A DNA stretch of 64,000 bases, from assembly GCF_028502605.1 (NCBI RefSeq), contig NC_079232.1, forward strand, positions 7,502,001-7,566,000. The letters are read 5' to 3'. The DNA is from Trichoderma breve. Lineage: Eukaryota; Ascomycota; Sordariomycetes; Hypocreales; Hypocreaceae. This document shows positions 41,061 to 62,292 of the stretch, in pieces. Positions within the stretch are counted from its first letter, which is position 1, and the number at the start of each line of letters is the position of its first letter. Both the position numbers and the translations under genes were made by a program. Under the pieces are notes generated by a model, which saw only the letters and a list, made by a program, of their open reading frames with translations, did no database searches and had not been told where the DNA came from.

Positions 41061-44000
41061 TCAAGGCCCAAGCAGTCCAGCAAGAGTCGAGGCCCAAGTA
41101 TTAACCTGATTGAGTTTTAGTAAATTGAACCGTTTGTAGGAAAAGATTTCATCGACTTGCTTACCTTTGCGGGAGTCATCATGGAGAAGTGGTTGCCGTC
41201 GGCGCGAACCACACTCACGCTTCCCAAGAGTTCATCCCATCCCAAAGATCCGTCGTCGACCCTGTCGTCCAAGAACCACTCTGTGATCCTCTGTTCTTCG
41301 GGCTTGACCTCTGGCCTGCGCACAGTATCCTGCTTGTCTGCGCCCTCCTTCGCTGAGACTAGCACAGCTTGTGGCAACTTCCTGCCAGGCAGCTTGCTCA
41401 CCTTGTACGCCGCCACCTGTTGTCTTGCTAGCGTGAAGTGGTCGTTCTCAACAACTTTACCTCTGCTGCTCTCGCCATTCTTGTCTTGGGCTATGCTATC
41501 CAAAAACTCGCACAAGGCGTCGGGTAGCGTGCTTGCGAAGGTGGGACACGCCGTATCGATGAGGAATAGCTTCTCGACCTCATTGCCGTCCTCAAGCAAC
41601 TGTCGCGCTGCTTCATAGGCCACAACACCGCCGACCGAATATCCACCGAGCAAGTAAGGACCCTCGGGCTGACGGCGCTTGATCTCGCCGACGTAGATGG
41701 CAGCAAGCTCCTCGATAGTAGGTATATTGAGGGCGTCGGGCTTGTTCTTGAGGAAGGGACTGTTGAGAGCATACACAGACACCTCTTCAGCACTGCTCAG
41801 CAACGGCCCAAGAGCGCCAAACACCGCACCGGACCCAAATCCATCTGGGGCAAGGAATACGTTGCGGCCTCCTGAAGCCCGTGAACCACGATGAAGCAAC
41901 GTCGATGTCGCCTTTGCAGAACACTGCTTCTCCGGCTCAGCAACCATACCACAGACCACTCGGACACCTCTGGATTCTCTCGTTGAGCCCTCAGACCAGT
42001 CCACGTGCGCAAATCCAGAGTCGTTCATGACCTTCTCCCAGGCCCAGGGGCTCTGCAGCGCATATGAGCGGCCGTCGTCGAACAACCACCACCCGTCCAG
42101 AAGGCCCCAGACAAGGTCATACCACGCCAGCTTTTGCGCCAGCTCAACCAGTGCCACGGCGCCGTCGTCAGGTCGTACCATCTTGCGGATATTAGTCAGG
42201 CAAACATTCAGGTTGCGTGTTGCGTGCACGCAGTTGCTCGACACAACGACATGGTACTTTCCTAGCAACTCCTGCGGGGGCTCCTCTTCGATGTTCAGTT
42301 TACTAAAGTCCATGCCTTGAACGCCCTTAAATGTCTTCTTGGCGCGCGCAAGCAGTGAAGGCGAGAGCTCGGTGAATGTATATGAAAAGGGAAGTCCAGT
42401 GGCTTGAAGCAGCGGTACGAGATGTTTAGTGGTGCCACCTGTGCCGGCGCCGACCTCGAGGATCCGGAATGGTTCACCATCGGAGGCCTGCAAGTGGATA
42501 GCGGCTGAGATGAAGTCGCACAAAACCCTTGTGGTGGCCAGCAGATCGGGGCCGTTTGCGTAGAAGTCTTCTAGTAGGAGGCGACCCTTATCAGAGCCAA
42601 ACAAAAGAGAGACAGCGTCAGCTTTGCCAGACAGACATTCAGCCAAATGTGGCCCGAGAAGATCAGGCAGACCGTGTGTTGATGCGTATTGAGGGAAACG
42701 TGCGATGAGGTCGGCACTGAGTTCCACGGCCGACTTGACATTTGGGTCATGTAGGGGCGTCGGGCCGCGCATGTAGTCACCAGCTTTTGTTTTCTCGACG
42801 ATACCGGCCTCCTCTAGGATATCCCAGAGCCGCGGGACTTCTCTATGGTATTTGGCAAGGGTTCCCTGCAGGGCAGGGAGTTTCTCTCCTCGCTTGAAGT
42901 TTTCAATGAGGCAGCCGAGCTTGGCAAATCCTTCGGTAATGAATGCTGCGACGGTTTCCAGCTGAGGAGGATATACCTGATCCCAATAGCCCGTGAACTT
43001 GGTGTCCTTGGCATGTGCATCAAAGTTGCGGCGGATCTGCTGGAAAGCTGCGTGGGTTATTCTTCCACCGCTCCTCTCCAGCGTCGACTTCTCAGCAGCA
43101 GCCGGCGTGGTTGCGCCCGTGTACGGAGTCATTGAGATGTCGTTGATGGAGGCTGACTGCCCATGAGATCCATTGGAAGTGGGAGTTTGCGCTGAATCAA
43201 CACCTAGAGTTGCCCCGATGAGCTTGCACAGGGATGCCACATCGACCAGTGAAGAGAATTCCGAGTTTGAGATGTCAACGCTGAACGCATCATTCAAGTT
43301 ACTGATGATTTCCGATGCGACAAGGGAGTCGGCGCCCAGATCCTCGAGATTCGAGTCCATCTGAATCTCCTCGATAGGCACGTCTAGGGAATGGCTGAGT
43401 ATCGAGAAAATAGGCTCCCGCCAAGCCGATGAAGGCTTGCCGACTGCCTCAACAGTAGGTTCAAATACATGCTCAGGCTGCTGATATTCCTCTTCTTCTT
43501 CGCTGCTGTCAATCTCAGCGCCGGCATCATCGTCACCGCCACCGACTCGAGCAGAGATGAAAGCGCACAGAGAGGCAACATCCACAATCTTGGTGAACTC
43601 ATCATTCGAAATGTCCACTTTGAATGTATCGGAGATACTTGCCAGGATTTCTGAAGTCACCAGCGAGTCTGTACCGAGCTCCTCTAGCGTTGCGCTCTCA
43701 ATGATGTCCTCAGCAGGAATGTCGAGTGACTTGCTCAGAAGCTGCTGCACGCCACCCAGCACGAAGACCGACTTTTGACCACTCTTCTTAGCTTTGGGCT
43801 TCTTAGGCGCGATCGGAGCAGCAGTGATAGCAGCTGGTGGACTCTGATACGAGCTCTTGGGCGTGGATGTTTGAACATCAACTGGTCTTGCCGGAGCCTT
43901 GACTGGCTCTTTGATCTCCACACTTGTTCCTGGGTTGGCTCCCGCAATCACCTTGGCTAGTGAGATGCGAGGAACTCTCGAGAACTTTAGGCCCCTGGCA

Positions 44001-47000
44001 GACCAGACAAGTTTTCTTGTGTTCTTGTCAAAGCCAAATACATCCAAGATGGTCTCTTTGCTGTCCTCGTGAACAATCCTGGTGTATGCTCTGTATCTCG
44101 CGCTTCCCTTCAGCGCACTTAGCGGGCCTACGGAATCCATGCCAGTGCAAATGTAAGACATTTCGCCGTTCGTCTCCTCTTCTTCGCCTGCGTCCCGTAG
44201 CGAGTGCACAAATATGCCCGGCACTTGTAAGAAGTTGTCCATAACCAGTGGATCCGCGATACTCTTGTTGGGAGTCATGGCCGAAGCGTCCAAGTTGGAC
44301 AGCGGCATGTGAATGTCTCCTGCACCCTCCTTGCCTTGTTTGCCAACGAGGTATTTCAGGCCTTTATACGGCGGCGAATAGGTGGCCATCTTGGAGAAGA
44401 CCTTGTATATCATTGCGCCTCGCAGTGCCTCCGTATCGGTATCATCATCCAGAAGCGTTGAGAGGCGCTCCCACATGTGTCTATCGCTCGATTCGCTGCC
44501 AGACTTGGAGCCGTTGGTCAGAGATATGACGCCTGTGGCATGTGAGGTTGGCTTCTCGTTGTCTTTAAAGGAAGCCAACTTGAAGTCCCATGCACTCCCC
44601 GTCTTCTTTGTTAACGTGAGTCTGACTGAGCGTTTCGAGTCTATACCAAGAGGAGCGTTGATCTTAATGGCATCCACTGTGGTTTCCGCGTTCTTCCCAG
44701 GATTCAGCAGAGCGACTGCATGCGCAGCCAGTTCGAGGTAAATTGCTGCTGGGCATAATGAAGAACCAACAACAATGTGACCTTTGACAAGCTCATGGTA
44801 GCGCCTGCTGCGTGTGTCTACCTTGAAGACATACTCTCCCTGATTCTGGCTCTTGTCCTGCTCTATGTAGGGGTAGTCACTGATGTCTTGGTGGCAGTGA
44901 GGGCACAAACCGGACAGTGGTGCCTCGCCGCCTTGCTTCGTACTTGCGCTGCCAAGGGGAGTGTAATCAAGCCAGTGATTGTGCTTTTCGAATTGATACT
45001 GCGGTAGATGCACGGGCACATAGCTCGCGGCTTGGCTCCGGTGGAAGGGCCAGAACTGTACGTTCGTGTGCCCGTTCTTCCACAGCGCCACCGTGGCGTC
45101 TGCAAGAGATCGAACTGGGTCTTTGCCATTGATCGGTACAAAGCCGTGCTGGTCTTGAGCCTGTGCTTGTGGTATCGCGTTCCGTGCCAACGCGATAATG
45201 GGACCGCCGAAGCCAGCCTCCAAAAACGTGCATGAACCCAGACGATCGACAATGCGCGAGATGGCTTTTCCAAAGTACACTGCACCCCGAGTATTGCGGG
45301 CGATCACGTTGGGACCAGGACCGGTCCAGGAGTCCTCGTGGCACGATTCGAAAGGGTAAATGGGATTCTATCCCGAAAGAGAGGGTTAGCAAATCATCTC
45401 AATAGAAAACGGAGGCTATTGAGCTGTCTTTGAGTATCTCTTTCTACTGACCTTGAATGTGACCGAAGCTGATAGCACCGCTGCTTCATCAACGATCGGG
45501 TCAGCCATGACTGAATGGTATGCATGCATTCCTCTCAGGACCTTGAAGCGGAGCTTTTCACCGCTGGCTTTCCTCTCGATCAAGTGCGATTCAAGCAAGT
45601 CGATGTCCGGTGTATGCCCAGCGACAACGTAGTTGTTAGGCCCGTTGTAGCACGCAATGTCAAGCTTAACGTCAGGATGCTGCTCGTTGAAGCGCTGCAT
45701 GTTTTGAGCAGGCGTCGTCCCCGTCCCGACCAAGTCGGCCTCGATGGCTACCATGGACCCGGTGTCATCGCCCCAGAGCTTCGCGATGAGAGATGCACGT
45801 CCTATTTATAATTAGCATTCCAAAAGTCACTCTATCAGTCGAATCATTTAATTACTGACTATCAAACTGTTAGCATACGGCGCCAGGCTCAGATAATCGG
45901 AGCAAATTCAGCCCGGGGACAAGACATACCCAGTAACAAGTCGCATACCATCCTTCAGTGTTATGGCGCCCGAGACAGTCAGTGCTGCCCACTCGCCAAA
46001 GGAGTGGCCAGAAATTGCCTGGGGCCTCACTCCTGAAGCAATCCACGACATACCGGACGAGTACTGAATAGCGAACATGGCAGCGTGGCGGAGGACGAGA
46101 TCATCGCTTTCTTGGACTCCCTCGAGGACAGCCGGGAAGAGACTGGGAAGCCCAAGAGACTGAATTGCCTCTTCGCAGTCGTCTATATATGACTTGAAGA
46201 GCAGAGAGCTCTCATATAGAGCCTTGGCAGGCGGAACTGCAGTGCCATTCTGTCCACTGAAGAGTAACACAATTGACTTGGGCTTGGGAGAGGCCGTGGT
46301 AATGTGGCTCTCGGGATCAGCGAGTTGTGTCTGCAGGTCGTTCACTTGAGTTGGAGAGTCAGTACCTAGTCTGGAGAAGCTTAGAACATTGTAAATAGCG
46401 AGTATATGACTTACCAGATGTGACAGTCGTGGAGAACACGTGTTGGAGTTGGCGGTTCTGCTTCTTCGCCAGCGTAAAAGCCAGGTGCCGAACGAACTCA
46501 GGAGTAGACGACTCTCTATCTAGCTGACTCTTCAGTTTGGCGAAATAAGCCAAAAGACTGGATTTAGAACCGGCAGATATGAAAATAGGGAACTTTGAAA
46601 CAGAAGCATTGGCCGTGTTAGACTCAAGCAATGAAGGCGAAGATGACGATCGAGGAGGTGGAGGCGCAACGACAGTGGCCGCATTGTTACCAGAAGCACC
46701 ATAACTGCTCACCAGTGCCAAACGCAAGTCATCTCGCCATTCTTTCAAGGAGGTCGAGATCGCCATTTGGTCAGGCTCGAGGGCTGGAATATTCGGGTTC
46801 AGTGTTTGGAACTGGGCCTGAGGTGTAATTTTACCGTGCTTCATCATGAGCAGGACCTTGATCAGGGAAATCGCGCCTGAAGCGCCCTCAGAATGGCCGA
46901 CATTGGGTTTCACAGCGCCGACATGCAAAGTATTGCCCCGGTCCGGACCACCAAGAACCTGTCGGATCGCCTCAACCTCGACGGGGTCACCAGCGCGTGT

Positions 47001-49376
47001 TCCCGTACCGTGAGCCTCGACATACGACACGGCCGCTGGGCTGACACCAGCGCGCAGCAGCACGTCTCTGAATAATGCCTTCTGGCTCTTCAGAACAGGA
47101 TTTGTGATGCTAGTGTTGTTTATGTTTTGATTGTTGCCAGTGGACAGCAATACGGCGTGAATGTCGTCGCCATCCTGAATCGCCCTGGCCACTGGCTTCA
47201 ATACCAAAACACCGACAGCCTCACCACGGCAGTATCCGTCCGCGCGAGCATCGAATGTCTTGCATGGACCCGTCTTGCTCAGAAACCCGCCTGTGCGGAG
47301 GGCGTCGAACAAGGCAGTGTTGGTGATCAGATTGGCACCTCCAGCGATAGCCCTCGTGCACTCGCCGACCTGGATCGCCCGGCAGGCCTGGTGTATGGCA
47401 ACCATAGCCGACGAGCAAGCCGTATCAATAGTCTGAGAAGGTCCTGTCCAGCCGAAATGGTGACTCAATCGACCAGCAACAAAGGAGCGGAGCATACCGA
47501 AGCCCGTGTAAGGCGACGATGGGTTGCAAGCCAGATTCAAGGGGTAGTCTGGCGCGTTCATGCCGATGAAGCAGCCGGTGATTTCGCCACCATCGGCCAC
47601 ATCGTGGGTCTCTGCCTCCTGTTGCTGATCTTCTCCAAAGCAGCCGGCTGATTCGAGGGCGTGGTAAGTGGTTTCGAGCAACAGGCGTTGATGTGGATCG
47701 AGGGCCGCAGATTCGCGCTTAGACTTCTTGAAGAACTGATGGTCGAATGATTCGGTGTCTCGTAAGAAATTGCCCACCATCTTCTCGCTTTTACTGGCTG
47801 CGTCGGGAAACCGCTTCGGGTCCAAGTCGCGGAACATGCTCTTACCTGACGATATCGCCTGCCAAAGGTCATCTGCGGTGTCTCCGGCCGCTGTCCGGCA
47901 AGCCATGCCCACGATGGCCACTGCATGCTCAGGATAACTTGTTGGTGTGATTTTTTCGTCTCCTGTTCGGGGTGTGATATCCCATAGCACTGGATGCCTT
48001 GGCGGGTCTCCTTTCTTGAGCTCCAACACTCGCACCACCGCCACATGGTCAGACTTGAGGCTAAGGACGCCATCCAAGGCCGCCAGGGCCTCCTCTTTGC
48101 TGATGATTGCAAGGCCCTTGGCTTGCATTCCCGTAGTGATCATACGTGTAGCCGACTTGCTTTGAGCCATCATACCAACGCCATCCCAGCAAGTCCACTG
48201 GATCGATGTGCTGTTGTCTCCCTGACGTCTCCTCCGTGCAGCTAATCCTTCCAAGAACGAGTTTGATGGCGCATAAGACAACTGGCCGGGAAATCCAACG
48301 AGTTGTCCAACAGAGGATGTCAGGATGAAGAAATCCAATGTGCCTGGTAGAAATAACTTGTCCAGATGGAGGGCGCCCATCACTTTGGGCGCCATATCGT
48401 TGTCCACCTCAGAGGGAGTACAGCGCTCCAATGTGCGGTATCCCGCGACACCGGCTGTGTGAATAACACCCTTTACAGAAGGCAGGGCTAAGTTGTCTAA
48501 GGCTTGCCGCAGAGTCAGATCTGCATCCGGCTTGCTGATGTCAATGGCCAGCACATGTACAATAGCCCCTAAGGTGCGGAGATGATCAATCCGTTTGACC
48601 AATGCGTCGGTATCAGCATCTTTCTCTTCGTTGTTGAGAACAGGCAAACCACGACGGGACACCAGTACAATGTTGCGAGCCCCTCTCTCCCCCATCCAAG
48701 TCGCAGTCTCCAAACCTATGCCTCGGGTCCCGCCCGTGATCAGGTATGTGCCCTTGGGATCAAGACTTGGCTTTACACCGGCCCCTTTTGTTTCAATGTC
48801 CTGGAACGGTTGGAGCCTCGCAGTCTGCGCCACTCCATTGGAGACTTTGACGACATCGAAGCCCTGGGCATATTTTATAGCGGAAAGCGGAAAGCGTCCT
48901 TCGTCTTCCTCGATCAGTCCGCCAAAGAGATCTGGTATTTCCATCTTCATTGCGCGTGCCAGTCCATAGAGAGGTGCGTAACCCAGTTCACTGATACCAG
49001 AATCTTTGGTGATGACTGAAAACAGCTTATAAGCCGTGCCTCTCTTGGCCTGGGTGTGTTGTTGCAGCATCTGCGCAGCAGCAATGAGACTGGTGCACGA
49101 TTTAGTCGCCGCTTCATAGACCCCGTACTTGTCATTCACCGCCTGAGGAAGATGAACGACAATTGCATCAGGCGTTAACAATGGCGCTATCTGCTCAACT
49201 TCTCTGGCAATGGCTGTTTTGTGGCCCTCTTCGGCAAGTTGGCTTTGGTATGCTGACAAGATTGTGTCATGCTCCCCTTCGCCAGCGAGAAAGACTACTT
49301 TCTCAAATTGAAACGGTTTGCCGGATAGTGTAGCCGTCGTCCAACGGACTTGGTGATATAGCCCGTGTGTGCTCAT
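41061..49376 (-). CDS. Iterative type I PKS, order KR-KS-AT-PT-ACP-ACP-CMeT-TE
   Basis: Exons 49376-46415, 46365-45930, 45866-45856 (putative 11-nt micro-exon), 45801-45452, 45367-41165 and 41105-41061 give about 2,668 residues. KR (about 1-470, with its structural subdomain): TGGTRGIG 214-221, Lys331, Ser354/355, Tyr368, Asn372. KS (about 483-915): DTACSS Cys654, EAHGTGT His789, VGHSEG His828. AT: GHSFGE Ser ~1109. PT: GHIVVGSSLCP His ~1450, DNFLQ Asp ~1630. ACPs: Ser ~1821 (GTDSL) and ~1934 (GADSL). C-methyltransferase: EVGAGTGG ~2224. TE: GGYSVGG Ser ~2497, DGNHFSMM His. KS, AT, PT, tandem ACP and TE are of non-reducing type, expected to form a C-methylated, PT-cyclised aromatic product. 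No SAT is present; ATG 49376 (MSTHGLYHQVRW) opens directly into the KR. The last 59-nt intron gives the C-terminus VNTWASTLAGLLGP. The AT-region splice is uncertain. Confidence 0.93.
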
Positions 49377-52175
49377 GACTGATGTTGTTTTCCCAATCAA
49401 AAGAATTGTTATTTGGGGAAATGTGCCATTAACAAGGTTCTTCAAAGTGTGTTGAAACGAGAAGTTGTTGCAATAAGCAAAAGTGAACTCAATCAAAGCT
49501 ACGACTTCGATTGTAGAACTATATATACCAGTCGCGAGTGTATCGACTTGGTGATTTAGCCGGAGGAATATAAGAATACCCCAGAAAGAAGTGATGTCAA
49601 ATCGTGATACGGCACGTATGCCCTTGCAACAATCTGACGCTAGCTATGTGCCAGATGTCAACGAAGCTACAGCTATCAGGGTATTGTATCAGCTTAGTTT
49701 CTATTACGTTTGTAGCTTCATTGCCTGATGCATACTGTGCAGGTTACGAGTATATTTCTAATCAAGATAAGAGTGTTGGTGAAGTGGCAACAGCTAGTGA
49801 TAGCAATCTATCTTTTACGTTCTGAGATACAGTTGGAAAGCTTTAAAATAGTACGCAGTTAGTATTCTTTCCATTTACATAAGAAACTAATTATATATTA
49901 TGTTCTTTATAGTATAAGCTAAATAGTAATTTTGCTTTATACTATTGTTTATATAAATGTTTAATTCTTAAATAAATATTAAGTAGAGCTATAATAGTTA
50001 GCTTAAAGGCAACCTATACCCTAGCACTATTAATAGTTATTAAAATGGAAATATAATATAAATACTTTAAGTTATATTTAAGGGTTTTATATTATAAAAT
50101 AATATCCCAATGATATCTTTACATATATATATTAAAAAAGAGTATACAAAAGCAATATAATTATACTCATAGAAATATATACTAAATATATATTTTATTA
50201 GCTTTTAAAATACCTATAGTTAGTATATCACAACCACAGTGTGTAGTTCACTATTACTTAATACTTTCATTTTATTATACAAAAAGATAATTTACACAAG
50301 TATATATAGACGAAAGAGGTAAATAAACAAACTAGGATTATATTCCATCAATACAAAACTCTTCAAGTATAATGATTTATGATAAATCACCAGTAGATAT
50401 TTAACCAAAGCAACACAATGTATTCCCTTGCAACCCCTAGTCCAGTCTAGTGGCTCCTACACTACTTTGTATCACTTACATAACTTTCTTTAATGGCTAC
50501 GGCTTACTTTATTTCTAACCTTGTTTGGTGTGTTGTAGTTTGTACCCAACGTAGGGTTGCAGCTGACGGATAAATCGGCATCTTGATAAGTGTAAACGGC
50601 GATCCTTACCAAGAGTAGTATCATAATATCCCTACTCTATCAACTCGAGAGATTCCATCACATTTGTCTATCGGAATTCGCAATACCAAGGGGTGGATAA
50701 AATACAACGTTGGTTATCACATCGATGCTCCAGGGTCTAGACTAGCGGCATTCGCTCCCCGCTGCCTAACGCAGGGCAGAATCTAACGGTTAATGCGGCA
50801 GCTGCGGCACCCTGATAAGCGTGGATGACGATCACTACCAGTCTCAGTATTGTTAGCATACCCGATTCGTCAATTTATAGAGATTTTATAATTCTTATCT
50901 GTCAGATTGTACCTGGCCCGTGTGTGTCAGATAACTGCAGATCTGACACGTATGCTGCAGCAATTATTCATTATCCTTGTTTCCTGCGCATCTCTTGCCG
51001 TGTCTGATAACTACAGGCCTGCCTTGTAGTAGAGTAGGAGGTAGTAACAGCAGCAGTCGCAGTGTTTACTATCCTTGGCTCCCGAAACTGTGCCTCGGCA
51101 TGTAATCTTAGATACTGCAGGGTTAACGCAGACCCTGTGGAGTGCGGTTTATTATCCTTGTTTCCTGCACTGTACCTAGCGTGAAGTGTCAGATGACAAT
51201 ACACCTAACTATCAGTACTAGACTGCGGAGTATTTCATCATCCGGCTTCTCCGGCCCGTGCCTAGTGCATAGTGTCAGATTCCTGAAGACGGCCTAACTA
51301 ACGATATTGTAGTACTCCGCAGTCTACTAACCTGCGGAGTATTACAATGCTTGTTTTCTGGAATCTGGCGTAAGGTTTAGGCAGGGATCCCCATAGGGCG
51401 TTAATGACGACTATCACTTACTCTACCCATGACATACTCGTACCCGAGTCTGTTTGAACATCCTACCCTAAAGACTCTGTTCAAGTGTGCAAATTTCACC
51501 AAAACTAGATACAATAGAGGCTACGATTTATGCCTTCTCCAAATGTCCAATTGACAATTTTAAGAACTATTCAATATATCAGTGAGTTTTGGAGAGAGAG
51601 CAGCACGAATTTGAGTATTTTATGTAGCTATTCTATTTCATTGAAAGAATTGAGCGGCGGAGTCTCCGATCTACTGTCTGTTTTTTCGAGGAGGACGAGT
51701 GTGGTAACCTTCCTATGTTAGCATAACACTATGATCAAAACTCCCCACTGCTAAAGTATACGAGGGAATACGGTATGATGGTGAGTCGTGCATTTGGCCA
51801 GTAAGAGTTGTGGAAGGGCATGAGACAATGGCTGGTTGAAAGTCATCAAGTATCGTATAGCCGTTGACCGGATGGATGTTTAAGGCGAGACGCTGGGTGT
51901 CCGAATCCGCTCTGTCCTACGGATCAGTTATATACCATATGGTCCAAGGAGTTACTGACGGGCCTTGAGTCACAACGATATTAGAGATTCTATCTTAGCC
52001 TACTACTTTGATTCACAAATTAATCTAGTACAGACACGCTGCGATCTTTAGTGTCAATTTGGGAGAAAGCTCAATAGCTTTGCAGTCTCTTGAACTAATT
52101 ATTTGTGCACAAATGTTGATCCCCTTATTGTCATCGATGTATCTCGCGGGGCTTGCCAATTTGACAGACTGAACT
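49377..52175. other. PKS upstream region, AT-rich block and degenerate repeats
   Basis: A strongly AT-rich block runs from about 49,840 to 50,420, followed by diverged repeats (separate entry). The rest to the P450 stop shows no coding frame with motifs. No gene recognised in 2.8 kb, unusual inside a cluster. Confidence 0.55.
50560..51450. repeat. Array of diverged short repeats
   Basis: Related units recur. ATTATCCTTGTTTCCTGC appears at about 50969 and 51150, with weaker versions at 51055, 51238 and 51345. GTGTCAGATAACTGCAG-like words lie at about 50922, 51000, 51186 and 51270. A third family (CTGATAAGCGTGGATGACGATCAC) lies near 50580, 50812 and 51395. CTGCGGAGTA with its inverse TACTCCGCAG lies at 51313-51341. 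Copies differ at many positions, so this may be an old, RIP-mutated repetitive sequence. Confidence 0.5.
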
Positions 52176-54294
52176 CTAGTCTGTTGATGACTGCTTGCGT
52201 TTTTTTATTCTGCAATTGAAACCTTCCTGCTTGAAAAAAAAGCCGTTCTCCACCGTTAGAGCTTTGGGGTCGATGATTTGAATCTGCAATTCTCTGTCAA
52301 TAGCAGCTCCAATGTTCCAACACTCGGGGACATGGCAACTTGCCTCGTAGTTGAGAATCAGAAAAGGTATTAACTTCTTAACCTCAAACAAGCCAATGTA
52401 CTTTCCAAGACACACACGTCTCCCGGCGCCAAACTGTGCTGACCGTTAGTTCCAATACAGTTCAAGGGCCTAATCCACGAACTCCAACACTTACGGTGAG
52501 TATGCTCTGCTCAAGTTTCTTCTTGTGACCTTCGCCACCAAGCCATCTCTCCGGACTCCAATCTTCTACGTTCTCGCCAAATGTGGGTTTGTGTCGGTTG
52601 ACCACGTATGGGTTACCACCGACGAAAACGCCTTCCGGCAGATACTTGCCCATTACGTCAACTCCGCCGACGGGAACAACCCGCTCAAAGGGAAGAGCAA
52701 ACGGTGGATGTATGCGCACAGCCTCTTGGACGCATGCGTCCAGATATTCCAAATCGCGGACCTCGTTCCATTTTGGATATGGACGAGAGAGATTTGCAGC
52801 GTCTAGTTCACGCTGCAATGCTTGGAGCGTGTCCGGATGACTTACCAGGTTGTCTGCGAAAAGATTAACCGCCTATTTCTTTTGCTCGCTACACATGACT
52901 TACTACAAGATTGTTAGCCCGTTATACACAAAGTAATTAGAGGGAGATGAACCTGATTGATCAGGCTTTAATGGCACATACCACAGAATCGTTCGCATTA
53001 CAGAGCCAACTGAATCAGAGCCTGCTATAACATTCGAAAACGTCCAAGCAGTTGACGCCCTGTAGATTGTATTAATAACGGCTTATAAATATCCCAAGCA
53101 CCGCAAGTGAGGATATTCCTACCATGGTGGCAAGTCTGGGTTAGCCCGGTGAATCTCAAGGAAGCGAGATAGAAAATCCTTCCCGCTAGTTTGCGTGCCA
53201 GCGTCGTCGTTGCCGTCCAGTCGCTCTCGAATGGCTTTGCTCACAACCCCAAGAATTGACATTCCCGGAGTCCGTCTAAAGCTGTGGACAATCTTGTTTT
53301 TATAGAACCAGGGGTCCAGCCAAGGAATCTGTGTCATCTGGGGAACATGTTCAGTAAGATTACATGAGTCATCAACAGAAGCACCCAACAAAGTACGTAC
53401 TGGTGCCGCAGTCTTCATGTAGTTGAAAATAGCGTCTAGCATTCCCTCATCATCCCGGCCTTGATCAAGGAATCCGTATCGTTTGGAAAAGGACATGGTT
53501 CCCATAACATCAAAGGCGAAATATTGCACCCATTTGCCAAAGTCGAGTATTTCCGTCGTGCCCACGAAGCGCTTGTCTAGCTGTTCAGACAGACAGGCAA
53601 GTACATCATCGACCAGTCCTTCGAATGTGACAGTGTTCGAGAGTGAAAAAAGCGGAGCAATTGGACTTTTGAGCCTCTTGTGCATTTGTTCGTCTTGTGT
53701 GTTGAATACCAGTAGCATAGAGCCACGCTCACTAGAATATGGACGCAATGCACTGTAAAAGTCACTCTAAGAGAGAGAAACCTATTGTTAGCATTGCATC
53801 ATTCTAGACACTGCGGTAAAGGTCCAGGACAAGATACAAACCTTGGGAAACCCGGACCTAATCGGATAGATTGTCTGAATAGCTTCGGGGTTGCTGACAG
53901 ACACCATGTGAGGCCCAATCCGTACAATGTCGCCATATTTGGCATGAACAGCCTGGTGATATAGATGTGCACGCCCGGTTCTCACCCACCAGACCCTTTG
54001 CAAGTTAGTGAGGCTGGCCAAGAAGGGCCCTGGAATATGTCTCAACGACCACCAGGTTTGAAACAGGTGCACAAAGACAACAGCAATCGTCGCTACCACA
54101 GCCAGCCACAAAAGCCGAACTCCATAGAAATCATCTCTGAAACTTGAAAATAGCTCTGCCGATGCATTGATGGCAGTTACGAGCGTCTTGTTCATTGTGC
54201 CCATCCAAGACAACCAATGCCTCGCAAGTTCCTGTTGGAAAATAAATAAACTTGACACTAAATGTTGTAGTTTACAAATGGATCCGTCTGGCAT
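52176..54294 (-). CDS. Cytochrome P450 monooxygenase 1 (pisatin-demethylase-like)
   Basis: Clear exons are 54294-53842, 53766-53401, 53337-53123, 53059-52982 (or to 52953), 52853-52495 and 52433-52176. A membrane anchor ([18 protein letters not shown]) is followed by the Pro-rich hinge [10 protein letters not shown], then [17 protein letters not shown]-helix: [19 protein letters not shown]. Exx[18 protein letters not shown] region: DWSPERW. Heme loop: [11 protein letters not shown] with the Cys ligand. An internal ATG (MGTMNKTLV) is an alternative start. The junction after the I-helix is a problem: donor 52981 with acceptor 52854 shifts the frame. A weak donor at 52952 or a two-intron solution restores it, or the gene carries a one-base defect. 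ER-bound oxidase, likely tailoring the polyketide. Confidence 0.85.
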
Positions 54295-55700
54295 AAATAG
54301 GGCAACTGTTTTTCAGTTGTTAAAAGCGACTAAATAACGATGATGTAACAAAGGTTTTTTCCATTTATGATACAAATCAGGTCACTTTGGCTAATGAAGC
54401 CATTGGCAAAATGTAAAAATGTTCAATGTAATATCAATTTACTAACGCCAAATAATCCTTACCAAAAACATTCGATAATAGCATGATGTTTAGACATTTA
54501 CTTCTACAGCCAAGTACATTTCTAATCATGCAATGCATTTCATCATCACTCTCTCTGTGACTAATAGTCCATGCTATTTTGAAGTCTGAATTGGAAGCGT
54601 ACACTATCTTGCTTCAAGCTAGCGACTAAACAAGAAGGTTACATATTCATATCCTTGTGGCATGTATATCGGTGAGAGATTACGAAGTCCGAAATTTAGT
54701 TCCATCTCGGAGTGAGTTGTCAACTACCCATGGAAAGGCCACGTTCCTCCCGCTCTGCAACCTCAATGCATTACAGCAGATAAGCAATGTCAAGGCAACT
54801 ACGTTGTAACAGAAAAGCCTCCATTAACCAAATGTAAAATAAGATTTAAATAAAAAGTGGATATAAAATAAATAAATAATAGTATTTAAGTAAATATATA
54901 TTTATAGAAATTTAATAAATTCTATTTAATTTTAATATTATTCCTTATAATATAGAAAGTTTTTTAGATTTTATAAACTATTTTTAATTTCAAATATTAG
55001 TTTTTGAATAAAAGAAATAAAAAGTTAAAATGTATAAACTAATATATAACTTATTTTTTCTTTATTTTCCTTATTTTGTATATCTTTTTAAAAAGAAAGA
55101 AATATATAAAACAGGGATTTTTAAAGTACATTTAATTACAAGCGGCAATATAACTATTTAAAGTAATATATTTACAATTATATTTATATAATTAAGATTT
55201 TTGAAATATATAAAATATCACTATATATAGATTTTCCCAACCATTAGATACTAGGATATAAGGTGAGTTGTTGCTTTTGCGTCCCACTGTAGTAGGTATT
55301 AGTGGAGATAGCACGGAAACTAACCGGAACCCGATATCACCTGCTTGGGCAGAGATCGTGGGGGCACCTGGTCTCTTCGCGTCTTACATGCATACGGCTA
55401 GTCAGAGATCGCCCGGGTAAATGGTCGTTTTCCGCTTCCATATTTGGCAACCAATCTCGCTCTGTCTTACATGCATGCGACCTTTCGGTAACCCCTGTGT
55501 TCTCCACCACCGGCTTACAAAAGTTCTCAGGTACCTGAGACGTCACTTAGATAAATGAATCTTGGGATATGACATTACAATAACTTCTTGTATGAGAAAC
55601 GTGGTTGAAATAGTATTATCAAGCCAATTGCCTGCTTGAGAATCCTCTGGAATAATTGCTTCCAACAGAATCTATCAACACTCGCAGAACAACCGCAACA
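54295..55700. other. Divergent P450 / O-methyltransferase spacer with AT island
   Basis: An extreme AT-rich block spans about 54,830-55,250. Near 55360-55480 a TCTTACATGCATACG/GCATGCGAC sequence is repeated. No gene recognised. Confidence 0.55.
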
Positions 55701-57125
55701 ATGGGATCATCCACTCGATCAGTTGATGATGTTCTCAAGACCTTGAATTCCATCAAACCAGAGGACTTCGCAGCCGATGGTGATCGAAGCAACGTCCTCC
55801 TGGCTGCGTATGCTCTTGTAAGCCGCCTTGAGACGCCCTGGGAGGCTGTTGCAAGGCTGTGTATGAACCAGGCAAGTCCAAGACATCCCCGGCTTCCTTC
55901 TACAAGTATTAACGTTGTGCTATTATGAAGCCTGCTCTTGAAGCCAGCTTGAAGGTGGCCAAAGATTTGCAGTTGTTTGAGAAGTGGCATGAGAGAGGTG
56001 ATGGGCCAGAAAAAAGTGACACCTTGGCGGACCTGGTTCAGTGTGATAAGCAGCTCTTCTGTAAGTCTTTGCACTTGGACAACAAAATCATACCCTGAGA
56101 ATGGGAGAAAAAGCCTCAGCACAGAAGCCACTGACATCAAGTAGCTCGTATTCTGCGGCATTTGGCAGTGAACCATATTCTTCAAGAAGTTTCGGCAAGT
56201 GTGTACAAGCCTACGGCCTTCTCTCTGTCTCTCCTCCAGCCCGTCTTCGGGGAGTGGATCAATTATCTGTAAGCTGAAACCCTACTATCACAAATTACGA
56301 TGCTAAACCGCTACCGCAGGTATGATGCTGCCATTCCTTGTTTCCATCGGATGCCAGAGTATCTTCAGAAAACACGTTACCAGACGCCTATAGACCCTGA
56401 TGATGGCGTGTTTCAGTATGCCAAAGATTACAAGGGAGATTTGTTCAAATATTACGCAGATCATCCCAAAGAAGGCGCATCCTTCAACCATGTCATGGGA
56501 GGTGTCATGGCCAATCAGGCCAGCTGGGTGAACATCATCCCTGCTGAGGCCTTTATCAATGGTTCGGATCCTAGTCAACCGCTCATTGTTGACGTAGGAG
56601 GAAATGTTGGTCATGATATCGAGAAATTCCGCAAGGAATTTCCAGAGACGGCTGCACGGCTGTATCTGGAGGACAAGCCCGGAGTGATTGCACTGTCAAA
56701 GTGCCCTGACCCCGTGAACAAAATTCCTCACGACTTCTTCCAGCCCCAACCAATTAAAGGTGAGCGATTGTGTGCCTCTAACAAGACTCAACCGCTGACA
56801 AATCTTTGCAGGTTCCCGTGTCTACTACATGCATGGTGTTCTGCATGACTGGGCTGATGAGCCGGCTCGCAAGATCCTCCAAATGCTCCGGGATGCTCTG
56901 AAGCCTGGTTACAGCAAACTTCTGATTCATGATCACATAGTCCCAGAGGTCTCAGCCCACCCACATGCGACATCGTACGACTTGACCATGATGGTTTTGG
57001 TTGCAGGGCTAGAAAGGACCGAAAGCGCCTGGCATGCTTTGCTTCAGTCAGCTGGATACAAGGTCATCCGGGTATGGAGATCGCCTCTGGCAGCCCAAGC
57101 TATCCTGGAGGCCGAGTTGGCATAA
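55701..57125 (+). CDS. SAM-dependent O-methyltransferase
   Basis: Five exons (55701-55871, 55931-56060, 56142-56268, 56320-56759, 56812-57125) join in phase to about 393 residues. The first intron has a GC donor (CAG|GCAAGT). The N-terminal dimerisation/winged-helix part reads ARILRHLAVNHILQEV. The SAM loop is LIVDVGGNVGHDIEKF. The catalytic His lies in YYMHGVLHDWADEPARKIL, and LLIHDHIVPE supplies the supporting acidic residue. This is the Methyltransf_2 (plant-COMT-like) family that methylates phenolic hydroxyls, including aromatic polyketides in fungi. It lies between two P450 genes in the PKS neighbourhood, so a tailoring role is likely. Confidence 0.92.
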
Positions 57126-57619: not shown

Positions 57620-59469
57620 CTAATTTATGACCACCCTGACGCCTTTGCTTTCCTTCTTAGGCATAGGAACAAACAAATCGTAGTCATATTTCACGTCATC
57701 AATACCCGTTTCATACAATTTCGTTCGCGGAAAGACACGCAAGGTCAGAGCCACTACCGATAAGAACAAGTTACAGTACGCCAGACTTGAGTATGGATGA
57801 ATTAGTAGCCATTGCAGATCTGTGAATGCGGAAACTTACTTCATTCCCAAGCACACCCTGCTGCCCTTAGAGAACGACGTCAAGCTACTCTCCATTCGGC
57901 GCCGTTGAGCTTCCTCTATGTCGAGCCATCGTTCAGGCCTAAATACATTCGAATCGGGGAACACTTCTTCGTTGTGGTGATTGATAGCATTGGACATGCC
58001 CATAGGTGTGCCGGATGGAATAACATATTTGACTTCGTGGCCATTGAATTGGCCTTGGTATATTAGATTTTCTTTGGATGCAATTCTGGGTATTCGGGCT
58101 GTGACGCCATAGGAAAGTCGCAAGCCTTCGGTAATGACTGCACTAAGATAAGGCAAATTTTCAAGAGCAACCCATGTTAGGCTGATGGCATCTGCATCCT
58201 GTAATTCTTTTGTCAACCGCTCTAGGATTTCAGGCTGATTCAGGAGGTAAAACGTGATGACAGTTAGAGTCCACTATGCGAATGTTAGAACTTTAGGCTA
58301 TGTCTGAGTTTGAGCTATCAGTCTTACCGCAGTCGTCTCAGTACCGGCCGAGATCATGGAGAAGCCTTCGCCACCTAGTCGGTAGTCCGTTTTCTCTTCA
58401 TCTGGCAAAGAGGAGCCGAGTATCGCCGCAAAAATACTCGCACGATCCTGTACTTTGCCAGACTCGTGCTCTTGTTTAGCTTTGCGTACGCGAGCAGGCA
58501 TTCTCTCATTCGACTCTGCCAACATTTTTGCGATATCCTCTCTCATGTATTTGGCAAATAGCGGAGCAATGTTGGTGAGAATTTTCAGAGGCGGAAAAAA
58601 ACGGAAAACGTACGTAGTTCCGAGAATCGCTCCCAAAGGTTCCCTAAAATTTGGATACCAGGTTTCCTTCACATAATCCTTTCAGCACGATGTGATGTAC
58701 ATCTCTTCCAATGAGACTCATTCTTACCTGCGATATAAATCCAAAAGGCTCTCCAAAGCAGTAGCCCGAAATGACATCTGAAGTAAAACAGCTGTAGGAT
58801 GTGGTCACGTCCAATGGATCTCCATTTTGTTTGCCTTTGACTGTTAGAAGCTGCCTCGGAATCTTGTTCTTTGTCATTTGACCTACCTAAACGTATCATC
58901 TTGTCACATAGTTGGTCGACGAGCTCCCTGATATTGGATTCAAGCTTCAAAATCTGTGCTCGTGAGAAAAACTTGTTCATCGCGCTCCGTCTGATCCGAT
59001 GATGATCGTGATCCAGGGTCGCGAACATGGACGAAACGATTGGCCCAGCGACGAAGTTCAAAAAGTGTTGCTGTTTATCACGCTTGCGGCCTCCACCGGC
59101 ATAGATCTCATCAACAAATGCTATGTCATCAAAGTGCAGCTCCTCGGGATTAATGCGCACAACAGGACCTAATTAACAACATCAGCCATGGCTACTGGCG
59201 TTTCGACGCCATATCATTTTACCATAAATCTCATGCATTCGTTTAATCTCGTGCGTGTACCTCCCATGTAGAATTAGATCATACCAGGCTTCATAGAGGA
59301 ATGTTGCAGCTGCAAGCTTCGGACCAGGTATGTGGTTGAGAGGATGAAAGGGTGAAATGTTATACAACGCCCAGAGTATATAATACGCTATCCACAGACC
59401 AGCAAGGCCTATGAGATTAGTCTGTGTAAGGAATCCATTAAGGATGCCCAACACAGCTGGAACACCCAT
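57620..59469 (-). CDS. Cytochrome P450 monooxygenase 2 (trichodiene-oxygenase-like)
   Basis: Six exons (59469-59223, 59168-58887, 58840-58728, 58678-58328, 58273-57840, 57785-57620) join in phase to about 530 residues. An N-terminal anchor (LIGLAGLWIAYYILWALY) precedes HPLNHIPGPKLAAATFLYEA. EIYGPVVRINPEELHFDD and HHRIRRSAMNKFFSR are typical of this fungal P450 group. I-helix: SMISAGTETTAWTLTVITFY, with the A-G-x-E-T-T oxygen-binding element. ExxR: ITEGLRLSYGV. FRPERW precedes the heme loop FSKGSRVCLGMN. The C-terminus includes FPRTKLYET. ER-membrane oxidase, possible tailoring enzyme. Confidence 0.93.
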
Positions 59470-60750
59470 TTTCGAATGTAGATGAGTTCAATGTGTTGGA
59501 GGTTGTCATTGACGTTCCAAGAGTTTAATAGGTTTCTCAGACGTCGACGTTGGCTGTTAGATACACACTAACCATTTCCGATTGTCAGCAGGTTCTGTGG
59601 TTTCTGGGTACTAGTAGTAGCTACTGTGATGATTTATGGGGAATATGTTCCGCTAGTCAGCGAAGTCCCCGATAAAAGTGCCTTGTGTCTGACGTCCTTG
59701 TACCAATGCAAGTTGATCCAACAGGCACTAAACTGTCACTGTGTATTTGCTTGATTATGGCAGTGTCTTGATATTACCTTTGATTACGATTAGCTAGGTT
59801 AGTAAACAACCAAACGGTTACAACCACTTTATTATACACTACTAAAAAATACAAACTTATTGTATTTTGCAAAGATAACTATAAAGAAGTATATATATAT
59901 ATATTGGTGAAATTGAGATTTTCTTAACACTTTAATATTTATAAATATTTACATTATGTATGCACTTTGTTATAATTTACATTAGTTAACTTATTTCCAA
60001 CGTAAATAAAAGCTATATTTATAACTACTTCTCTAAGATTTATAACGATAATTAATTTAAAATTTAATTCAATTAAAACATTATATATTTGGAAATTAAT
60101 ATAATATTTCATATAGTAGTTATTAACTTTTGATTACTTATTTTTGCAATAACGAGATATACAGGGTAAGATAAAGTTGTCAATACAATGCGGGATGAAT
60201 GTGGGTCTGAAACAACACGCTACTTTATCGTGGGGGTGGATTCTGCAATAGACATGGATGACGAGCTCCATAAGAACGGCCCGTCCTGCATGGGTAGCCA
60301 TCCCTGCATGGGTCCCCAGTCATCAACCCTGCACGGAGAGTCAAGCCTGCATGCACAGTCCTGCATGGATCGTTAACCCTGCAAGCTGTAGCAAGGGTAT
60401 ATTCAGCCCCCGGTCATGTATCGTCAAGGTTGCTCGACTCAAGATAGCATGATTCCTTCGGCCCGCTTACGAATGTTGCGGAGCCGGCAACGAGCACATC
60501 ATCATCATCATCATCATTATCACCAATAGCACTGAGCAAAATTTGCCCATGTTCTCTCCCGCCCTTTCCTCCCCCCTGGTCATTGGTGGTACGACTGCTC
60601 TAGGCTAACATCCTTCACACCGCACTGCTGCTTAGAAGACGATAAGCCCCCGAAGTGTTCGGATGCTGTTTGTCGATTTGAATTGCTCTAAAATAGCCAG
60701 ACGATCTATCCTTAGACTACCACAATTCCATGGGCCACTGAATACGGATA
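59470..60750. other. Divergent P450-P450 spacer with AT island
   Basis: An AT-rich block runs from about 59,810 to 60,170, then a short CCTGCATGG repeat array (separate entry) and a (CAT)n run at about 60496-60515. No gene recognised. Confidence 0.55.
60284..60386 (+). repeat. Degenerate CCTGCATGG tandem repeats
   Basis: Six variants of CCTGCATGG (CCTGCATGG, CCTGCACGG, CCTGCATGC, CCTGCAAGC) occur in about 100 bases at uneven 13-27-nt spacing. They lie 370-470 bases upstream of the third P450. They could be a decayed minisatellite or a cluster of GCATGC-like protein sites. Confidence 0.55.
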
Positions 60751-62292
60751 ATGAGATTAACAGAGGCATATGTCAAGGCGGCACTGCAAGGTGCTACGCC
60801 TGCGGCTGTGTGCCTGCTCGCCGCTTTGGCAATATTATCCGTCATTCTTTACCGGCTTTATTTCCATCCTCTCAAACATATTCCTGGCCCGCTATTAGCA
60901 AGGACATCGTCAATCTTCCTCTATGTGATCAGCTACCTGGGCCTCGAAGCCCGTATCCTTCGCCATTACCACAAAGTTTATGATACAAAAGTGTTACGAG
61001 TAGCACCAAACTCAGTTTCTGTGTCCGATGGCGCTTCTATTCACACTATTTATGTGGCTGGGGGTGGGTTTGCGAAAGATGCCAGGTACTCAAATTTCAA
61101 CATGGGACCTGTAACTACCATTTTTTCGAGCCTGGACACCGATTATCGTGACTTGCGCGCCAAGGCTGTTGCGCCCCTTTTCTCAACATCTCGTCTTCGC
61201 AATGCTTCTTTACATGGAGGTGTTATCCATGAATGTGTCTCCGAGTTTGTCACCCAGCTCGCTAGTCTCAAAGCCGACTGCAAGACCAACCATGCCAAGT
61301 TGGATATCCTAGACCAGTGCGCCCGTCTCTCTCTGGACGTTGTGACTGGCTATCTGCTGAACGAGCCGTACGGTGGCCTGGCCGAGCACCAGCAACTTCC
61401 CACGGAGAAGCGGCTGAATGCCAAGCTCAGCATAAACCCATTCATATTTGCCATTGTGGGGTTTTCGCGCTTCTCGCTGCTTCCAAACTGGCTTTTCAAA
61501 TTCATGTACTCTCTCTACAGCCGCTTTAGCTTCAGCGAGGAAGTGGGCAGATGTTTTGTCAGCATGGACTCGTTTGCGCGTCGTCTAGTCAGCCAGACTC
61601 TTGAAGTCGATCCCACCAAAAGGCAAGACTCGTACCAAACTCGACTTTTGGCAGCGGGAATTACACCTTCGGAGACCGAAGTTCAGTGTCAGGCCGTCGT
61701 ATTCGCCGGTTCTGACTCCACAGCCGTTAAGTTGGCCACAATTCTGTTTCATTTGGTGCAGAATCAGGACTGCCTTCGCCGACTGAAGGAAGAACTCCAG
61801 GCGGCAGAGACTGAAGACGAAGCCGTAGCCCTGCAAGAACAGCCATACCTGCTTGCCGTTATCAAGGAAGGTTTGAGAGTGGGCATGGCTAATCCGACTC
61901 GGATGACGCGTGTTGTTCCCGCCAAGGGGATGCAAGTTGGAGAAGTCTACATCCCACCAGGTACCATTGTTGGTGTTGCTCCGTATATTGTGCACCATGA
62001 TCCAGCTGTATTTCCAGATCCATTTGCATTCCGGCCTGAGAGATGGCTCGAGGCCGATAGGGACAATGGGTTGAAGAGACCCAATATGGACAGGAGTTTA
62101 CTTATGTTTGGAGCGGGTTTGAGAGCTTGTATAGGAAGAAACCTGGCGCAGAAACAGTTGACAGAAACCATCAAGGCCGTGGTGAAAAGCAGTGTGCTTG
62201 AAGGCGCGCAGACTTGCCAAAAGCGCATTGAGCTTGTAGAGTGGTTTAACGCCGAAATTAAGGGGCATACGCTAGACATTGAGTGGCCTTGA
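60751..62292 (+). CDS. Cytochrome P450 monooxygenase 3, intronless
   Basis: A single exon of 513 residues. The membrane anchor (AVCLLAALAILSVILYRLYF) leads to HPLKHIPGPLLARTSSIFL. HYHKVYDTKVLRVAPNSVSV matches the benzoate-4-monooxygenase/pisatin-demethylase-like fungal P450s. I-helix: VVFAGSDSTAVKLATILFHL. ExxR: IKEGLRVGMANPTRM. FRPERWLEA precedes the heme loop MFGAGLRACIGRNLAQKQL. It ends EIKGHTLDIEWP. ER-bound oxidase. Unlike the two neighbouring P450 genes, which carry several introns each, this one has none. It marks the right end of the recognisable cluster. Confidence 0.93.
   Translation: MRLTEAYVKAALQGATPAAVCLLAALAILSVILYRLYFHPLKHIPGPLLARTSSIFLYVISYLGLEARILRHYHKVYDTKVLRVAPNSVSVSDGASIHTIYVAGGGFAKDARYSNFNMGPVTTIFSSLDTDYRDLRAKAVAPLFSTSRLRNASLHGGVIHECVSEFVTQLASLKADCKTNHAKLDILDQCARLSLDVVTGYLLNEPYGGLAEHQQLPTEKRLNAKLSINPFIFAIVGFSRFSLLPNWLFKFMYSLYSRFSFSEEVGRCFVSMDSFARRLVSQTLEVDPTKRQDSYQTRLLAAGITPSETEVQCQAVVFAGSDSTAVKLATILFHLVQNQDCLRRLKEELQAAETEDEAVALQEQPYLLAVIKEGLRVGMANPTRMTRVVPAKGMQVGEVYIPPGTIVGVAPYIVHHDPAVFPDPFAFRPERWLEADRDNGLKRPNMDRSLLMFGAGLRACIGRNLAQKQLTETIKAVVKSSVLEGAQTCQKRIELVEWFNAEIKGHTLDIEWP

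Follow-up and report, generated by a model that had tools for sequence, protein, structure and literature searches.

Can a fungal non-reducing polyketide synthase (NR-PKS) begin with a ketoreductase (KR) in the place of its SAT domain and, if so, from where was the KR acquired and on what does it act? The question is raised by a gene in a 64,000-nucleotide stretch of the Trichoderma breve genome (NC_079232.1, positions 7,502,001 to 7,566,000; referred to below as the window), which sits on the 7.59-Mb contig C1, 21 kb short of its end, in a genome of 38.5 Mb in nine contigs. We read the product as an intact, iterative fusion PKS in which a KR half from a partially reducing (PR) synthase is placed ahead of the KS of a C-methylating NR-PKS, the SAT being absent and the KR reducing the growing chain; a probability of roughly 0.6 is assigned to this reading. 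The gene and its domains are located as follows (window coordinates):

41061..49376, minus strand: KR-NR-PKS gene, 2664 aa; exons 49376-46415, 46365-45931, 45801-45452, 45367-41165 and 41105-41061
48762..49376, minus strand: KR structural subdomain, residues 1-205 (AF2 model and alignment to KR relatives)
48183..48752, minus strand: KR catalytic subdomain, residues 209-398, with K331, S355, Y368 and N372 (PF08659, 4.7e-53)
46809..47924, minus strand: KS, residues 485-856, with C654, H789 and H828 (PF00109, 3.6e-68; PF02801, 1.6e-33)
44900..46365, minus strand: AT, exons 2-4, limits approximate (active Ser in GHSFGEW, His in MHAYHSV)
43946..44866, minus strand: PT (TIGR04532, 2.6e-35, 122 bits, cut-off 168)
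43550..43753, minus strand: ACP1 (TIGR00517 match, exon 4 residues 539-606)
43217..43405, minus strand: ACP2 (PF00550)
42167..43042, minus strand: CMeT, HTH_51 and methyltransferase fold (PF18558, 6.6e-23; PF08242, 2.2e-14)
41177..41863, minus strand: TE (PF00975, 4.7e-23)

The reading frame opens after an upstream stop (49643) and holds no in-frame ATG before 49376; from this ATG, on the minus strand, 2664 codons run ahead of the stop that ends at 41061. Pfam and TIGR scans covered exons 1 and 4 and gave, together with the AT motifs, the order KR (with structural subdomain)-KS-AT-PT-ACP-ACP-CMeT-TE; the AT is unscored as one piece by Pfam because it is spread over three exons. The KR carries the motif TGGTRGIG and the tetrad K331, S355, Y368 and N372, and R241 is invariant when it is aligned with its KR relatives. 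The AF2 model of residues 1-470 (mean pLDDT 89.6) was matched along its length by two-subdomain ketoreductases, the best PDB match being EryKR1 (2fr0; E 1.9e-31, TM 0.78). The Cys-His-His of the KS, the active Ser of both ACPs and the Ser-Asp-His of the TE are all present. The match to the PT model covers nearly its whole length at a score below the cut-off (122 against 168 bits), and the His and Asp of the PT are in place. This domain order, with a structural subdomain and an intact K-S-Y-N tetrad in the KR, had been proposed in a sequence-only reading of the locus and is borne out by the domain scans, the motifs and the AF2 model; the gene is apparently intact.

The KR and the KS are encoded on one open exon of 2962 bases (exon 1) with no stop or intron between them; the KR is therefore not a separate gene, and that candidate was ruled out. 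Scanning exons 1 and 4 with Pfam gave no SAT, nor did residues 1-453 at E values of up to 1; the window as a whole holds no SAT match, the genome's 12 SAT matches all lying elsewhere. An upstream SAT exon, sought as the finding that would overturn the claim that the KR takes the place of the SAT, was ruled out as well: the window has no SAT match, partly AT-rich DNA extends for about 2.8 kb between the start of the gene and the next one, and the claim stands. The AT-rich DNA immediately upstream of the PKS start lies at 49500-50500 (GC 0.34, then 0.25), and the 2.7-kb region upstream of the PKS is matched in other parts of the genome by no more than two short, partial stretches; it is possibly an old, mutated repeat.

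Homologues were sought among 5.8 billion proteins with the first 500 residues as query, and the best 120 of 3315 matches were listed; with such a query the word-based search favours KR-bearing proteins. At least 48 fungal homologues (P0001-P0048; the count is a lower bound) with 50-96% identity were obtained from Trichoderma, Aspergillus, Penicillium, Botrytis, Apiospora and others, all with the KR at the N-terminus, so the architecture is not unique to this gene. The closest of the matches listed is P0001 from Trichoderma guizhouense (96%). A search with KS-AT (best 120 of 1068 matches) returned the same 48 fungal proteins and P0121 from Penicillium salamii; the latter is a clade member by its KS and uninformative on the KR, because its gene model begins within the KS. 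Further pieces of the clade, beyond the 48, are P0187-P0191 and P0194. According to precomputed Pfam lists, a KR is present in 48/48 homologues and a SAT in 0/48. The catalytic part of the KR is N-terminal and at least 80% covered in all 48 aligned homologues, and the structural part is partial in three of them (coverage 0.29 in P0044, 0.75 in P0035 and 0.77 in P0040).

Catalytic residues were well kept across the 48 homologues: K331, S355 and Y368 of the KR in 48/48 and N372 in 47/48; the KS Cys in 48/48; the AT Ser and the TE Ser in 46/48 each (2 gaps in each case); the PT His in 48/48 and the PT Asp in 43/48 (Asn in the other 5); and both ACP Ser in 48/48. Median pairwise identities were 0.611 for the catalytic part of the KR, 0.718 for the KS, 0.630 for the AT, 0.507 for the PT, 0.530 and 0.521 for the ACPs, 0.629 for the CMeT and 0.544 for the TE. 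These values bear on the explanation that the KR is mainly a structural stand-in for the SAT, with little or no reduction and an ordinary, non-reduced, C-methylated aromatic as the product. It draws on the ascomycete NR-PKS ACAS, which needs its SAT to be covalently attached, although that SAT may have no catalytic activity (PMC10401856), so an N-terminal part may be needed in ascomycete NR-PKSs. A KR of purely structural use is, however, hard to square with the conservation of K, S, Y, N and R241, and a pure scaffold predicts the opposite of a catalytic part that is better conserved than the structural part (0.611 against 0.469); we regard this explanation as unlikely.

The CMeT is mostly missing (coverage 0 to 0.29) in 10 of the 48 homologues. 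These members (P0039-P0048) sit at four places of the clade tree, and four parsimony changes were counted on the FastTree tree. Because the KS relatives carry a CMeT, the absences are read as losses, although some could be faults of gene models. The KR, retained in 48/48 while the CMeT varies, is thus kept where the other optional domain comes and goes, and C-methylation seems to have been lost repeatedly while the KR stayed.

The remaining doubt about the gene model concerns the junction of exons 2 and 3, where the frame cannot be restored by any one GT-AG intron at the conserved motif LVTGRAS (LVTG-RAS). The junction is probably best read as follows:

45802..45930, minus strand: [D1,2] stwintron as read, with an internal intron (45929-45859) inside the donor of an external intron (45930 and 45858-45802)

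The internal intron is GTATGT...GCTAACAGTTTGATAG (71 nt), and the external one is G + TCAGTA...GCTAATTATAAATAG (58 nt). The sequence fits the form named [D1,2] stwintron in the literature, in which the internal intron separates the first base of the external donor from the rest. Two other readings, A (another donor, six residues fewer) and B (an 11-nt mini-exon with a branch point nearly touching the acceptor), were set aside in favour of the stwintron. The spacing at the junction was determined by motif search in the homologue models, 7 of the 48 being unmeasurable; it is exactly that of the stwintron reading in 9/41, and the other 32/41 are spread over 17 other lengths. Since these 32 models vary in length there, gene callers seem to fail at the junction throughout the clade, which suggests that the nested intron is common to the clade and misannotated in public records.

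An artefact of the gene model or the assembly, or a decaying pseudogene, would also account for exons that are not joinable in frame by a simple intron at a conserved motif, and P0001, for all its 96% identity, omits residues at the very same junction. If the junction is read as a stwintron, however, all five exons are open throughout and have GT-AG signals; the KR and the KS share one of them; the same domain order recurs in 48 homologues; and variation of 32/41 homologue models at the same junction points to a shared, odd intron rather than to an error in one genome. An artefact is accordingly considered very improbable.

The ancestry of the KS and of the KR was analysed in separate trees (supports given as SH-aLRT/UFBoot), as the sequence-only reading had advised, and the two domains fell into different groupings. 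The KS tree comprised 55 sequences, among them 18 of 49 clade members hand-picked for spread; four KS in it carry the tag of highly reducing (HR) PKSs, a tag that does not come from a domain scan. The clade members form one group (100/100), which joins seven CMeT-type NR-PKSs at 99.1/100; with all nine sampled NR-PKSs it groups at 99.5/100. The CMeT of the seven was established from precomputed Pfam lists for four and by scanning for three loci of the T. breve genome itself, two of which show a SAT and a reductase-type release domain. Because the seven group by themselves at 83.5/86, the clade is probably their sister. The third of the three T. breve loci, L053 (contig C4, 628000-637900), reads KS-AT-ACP-CMeT, with no SAT or release domain in the scanned part of its main frame; no SAT match was obtained on contig C4, which carries it. 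A bacterial origin of the KS had been considered from PDB rankings, in which 7zma (456 bits, split over two stretches) and CurL (288) stood above CTB1 (245), and was overturned by the KS tree.

The KR tree comprised 112 sequences, with the same 18 clade members and five pieces (23 in total; P0191 is without most of the catalytic KR). The clade is again one group (100/100); it joins 12 KR fragments at 97.1/100 and, with these, 27 bacterial single-module open reading frames (ORFs) at 99.6/100. The latter were taken by hand, out of 80 bacterial loci, from those matching most of the query; measured between stops, they span 1713-2303 codons, with 0-46 codons left after the match, and the four that were scanned are all KS-AT-DH-KR-ACP. 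These bacterial relatives are presumably of the type of 6-methylsalicylic acid synthase (6-MSAS); no named 6-MSAS was among the sequences of either tree. An ACP is listed in 8/12 of the KR fragments, and in the three that were scanned for it, weak traces of a dehydratase end, all under the cut-off, lie ahead of the KR (E 0.017, 0.0088 and 0.00033). The window protein starts where the KR halves of these relatives start, just past the dehydratase region, and is without their ACP. One of the fragments, P0202 from Apiospora phragmitis, is a 402-aa KR-only model that may be the closest KR relative outside the fusion; its placement by the clade has a support of 21/41. The PDB rankings and the earliest BLAST results had pointed to a direct descent of the KR from bacterial modular PKSs; this was replaced by the grouping with the DH-KR-ACP-type fragments and single-module synthases.

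The KR might also have been recruited from the fungus's own HR-PKSs or PKS-NRPSs (hybrids with nonribosomal peptide synthetases) by domain shuffling, and the genome would offer material for this with 39 PF08659 matches, fragments and other reductases included. Seven other KRs of the genome are nevertheless set apart in the tree at 99.4/100, whereas the KR of the window groups elsewhere; four of the seven were scanned, two being accompanied by an ER (HR type) and two running into an NRPS condensation domain (PKS-NRPS). Such an origin is consequently given next to no weight. The enzyme thus looks chimeric, with a KS from the line of CMeT-type NR-PKSs and a KR from the line of DH-KR-ACP-type and single-module synthases. 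The simplest account would be that such a KR was joined in a single event to a CMeT-type NR-PKS, whose SAT was lost; as judged from their sequences, the fusion arose once among the sampled members.

How might such an enzyme work? Single-module iterative synthases of the kind to which the KR's relatives belong reduce selectively and on their own chain, so one or a few programmed reductions are expected here. Priming would proceed from acetyl or malonyl loaded by the enzyme's own AT and KS, with decarboxylation of malonyl as a possibility. The poly-beta-keto chain would then be extended on the ACPs and methylated at chosen steps; the ACP would swing to the N-terminal KR, and a keto group would be reduced at a single fixed chain length or at a few such lengths. 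Cyclisation by the PT and release by the TE would give a C-methylated aromatic that lacks at least one oxygen or holds a reduced centre, and the KR may, in addition, take over the structural role of the SAT. In SAT-bearing enzymes, the SAT transfers the acetyl starter to the ACP (PMC10401856), so the ACP reaches the N-terminal end, which should bring the KR within its reach. Reduction of the ACP-bound chain in cis is the most likely activity. Of the two mechanisms put forward in the sequence-only reading, action in cis on the chain or preparation or gating of the starter, the former fits the clade-wide conservation of the KR residues, which supports the proposal in part.

That the KR acts on or gates the starter, or serves a substrate in trans, rather than reducing the growing chain, is suggested by its position, where the starter-loading domain normally sits, and by fold matches that include an N-terminal KR from a bacterial assembly line, that of macrolactin MlnE (5d2e). 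Its nearest relatives in the tree are, however, KRs of single-module synthases that act on their own chain, and we give a starter or trans role little chance. A more far-reaching variant of the proposed reduction in cis would be a third class of fungal aromatic synthases between NR and PR, in which, after one old fusion, the KR of a 6-MSAS-type enzyme makes the SAT dispensable by completing the N-terminus and carrying out a single programmed reduction, and the PT, a domain of the dehydratase fold, acts with it as dehydratase or cyclase on the reduced chain; this is put forward tentatively and held to be doubtful.

Several points weigh against reduction in cis by an intact fusion enzyme. The structural part of the KR is the least conserved of all domains (median identity 0.469). 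The distance correlation of KR and KS (0.85) is not above that of other pairs (KS-PT 0.90, KR-PT 0.88, KS-AT 0.79) and shows shared descent only. Following the HAAG motif, the clade has a stretch like A-G-Y-H-T (A in 48, G in 39, Y in 43, H in 39 and T in 45 of 48), and L-E-D is found there in 7/12 KR fragments; this stretch matters for substrate entry or stereochemistry in KRs, so the substrate, its entry or the stereochemical outcome may differ from those of the relatives. A fungal name is attached to only two of the 12 KR fragments, P0197 (Arthroderma) and P0202 (Apiospora), the other ten being without an organism name. The splice junction in the AT is a reading of the sequence and not a measurement. 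ACAS, an ascomycete enzyme, is inactive without its SAT, and up to 2023 no ascomycete NR-PKS lacking a SAT had been reported to be active (PMC10401856); the absence of the SAT could therefore mean a crippled enzyme, unless the KR compensates. Finally, in the one expression record found, the value is 0.0 in both genomes carrying the gene (PMC4073137).

Putative tailoring enzymes are encoded nearby. On one flank, at 52.2-62.3 kb, the PKS is accompanied by three P450 genes and an O-methyltransferase gene, and on the opposite flank by an amidase gene and a GST-like gene; they may belong to one cluster with it.

52176..54312, minus strand: P450 gene, several exons, limits approximate (PF00067 on 53119-53766 and 52462-52872; none on 53788-54312)
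56273..57122, plus strand: O-methyltransferase gene (PF00891, 2.6e-15, on 56799-57122; weak on 56273-56848)
57836..59487, minus strand: P450 gene, limits approximate (PF00067, 8.4e-27, on 57836-58273; none on 58298-58681)
60742..62292, plus strand: P450 gene (PF00067, 3.9e-42)

If the KR works in cis, the programming of fungal aromatic PKSs includes selective reduction within an otherwise non-reducing enzyme. With this clade, nature also provides a test of whether NR-PKSs of ascomycetes can work without a SAT, something not reported up to the time of PMC10401856, and it offers an evolved junction between reducing and non-reducing parts.

Among known systems, the closest counterpart was described in 2021 with Synthaser, whose KS network of Aspergillus holds a cluster of NR-PKSs with a KR replacing the SAT; the authors called these KR-first enzymes very abnormal, argued against annotation error, suggested a KR-type reduction and left characterisation for the future (PMC8582187). 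The window PKS resembles that cluster in its N-terminal KR directly before the KS, the lack of a SAT and an NR-PKS-like remainder, and in having a number of homologues; the report is confined to Aspergillus and gives no KR ancestry, whereas the present enzyme is a Trichoderma-type member with a CMeT and two ACPs. A table from 2014 lists a KR-KS-AT-PP-TE protein of 2648 aa in two of four genome columns, with a value of 0.0 in both (PMC4073137). The expectation that no example had been characterised holds in that no product of an N-terminal-KR NR-PKS was found in the openly licensed literature; the architecture itself is already recorded in these two papers. Several clade members bear transferred Botrytis names, BcPKS20 or BcPKS19 (e.g., P0020, P0022 and P0039), and Bcpks19 and Bcpks20 are placed under 'unknown polyketides' in a table (PMC9920419). 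P0016 from B. cinerea has the domain order of the window PKS, and P0039, the sole BcPKS19-named member listed, differs from it in being without a CMeT.

CMeT-type NR-PKSs (SAT-KS-AT-PT-ACP-CMeT with TE or R), of which one with a SAT and without a KR has been characterised (PMC11579551), agree with the window PKS in the order from KS to CMeT, as judged from the examples in its own genome, but have no KR in front. In PR-PKSs of the 6-MSAS type and the bacterial single-module relatives, the KR is located near the C-terminus before the ACP, and their order KS-AT-DH-KR-ACP differs from that of the window PKS. When measured against the strict definition of a fungal NR-PKS, the enzyme belongs to that lineage by its KS and departs from it by the missing N-terminal SAT and the presence of a KR. 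CrPKS1-3, which are not known to have a KR, are SAT-less like the window PKS but stem from another fungal phylum. These basidiomycete NR-PKSs (clade XII) are active (PMC10401856). To an architecture already in print, the present analysis adds a Trichoderma-type member, the split groupings of KR and KS, the constraint on the KR amid changes in the CMeT, a bearing on the question of the SAT and the probable nested intron.

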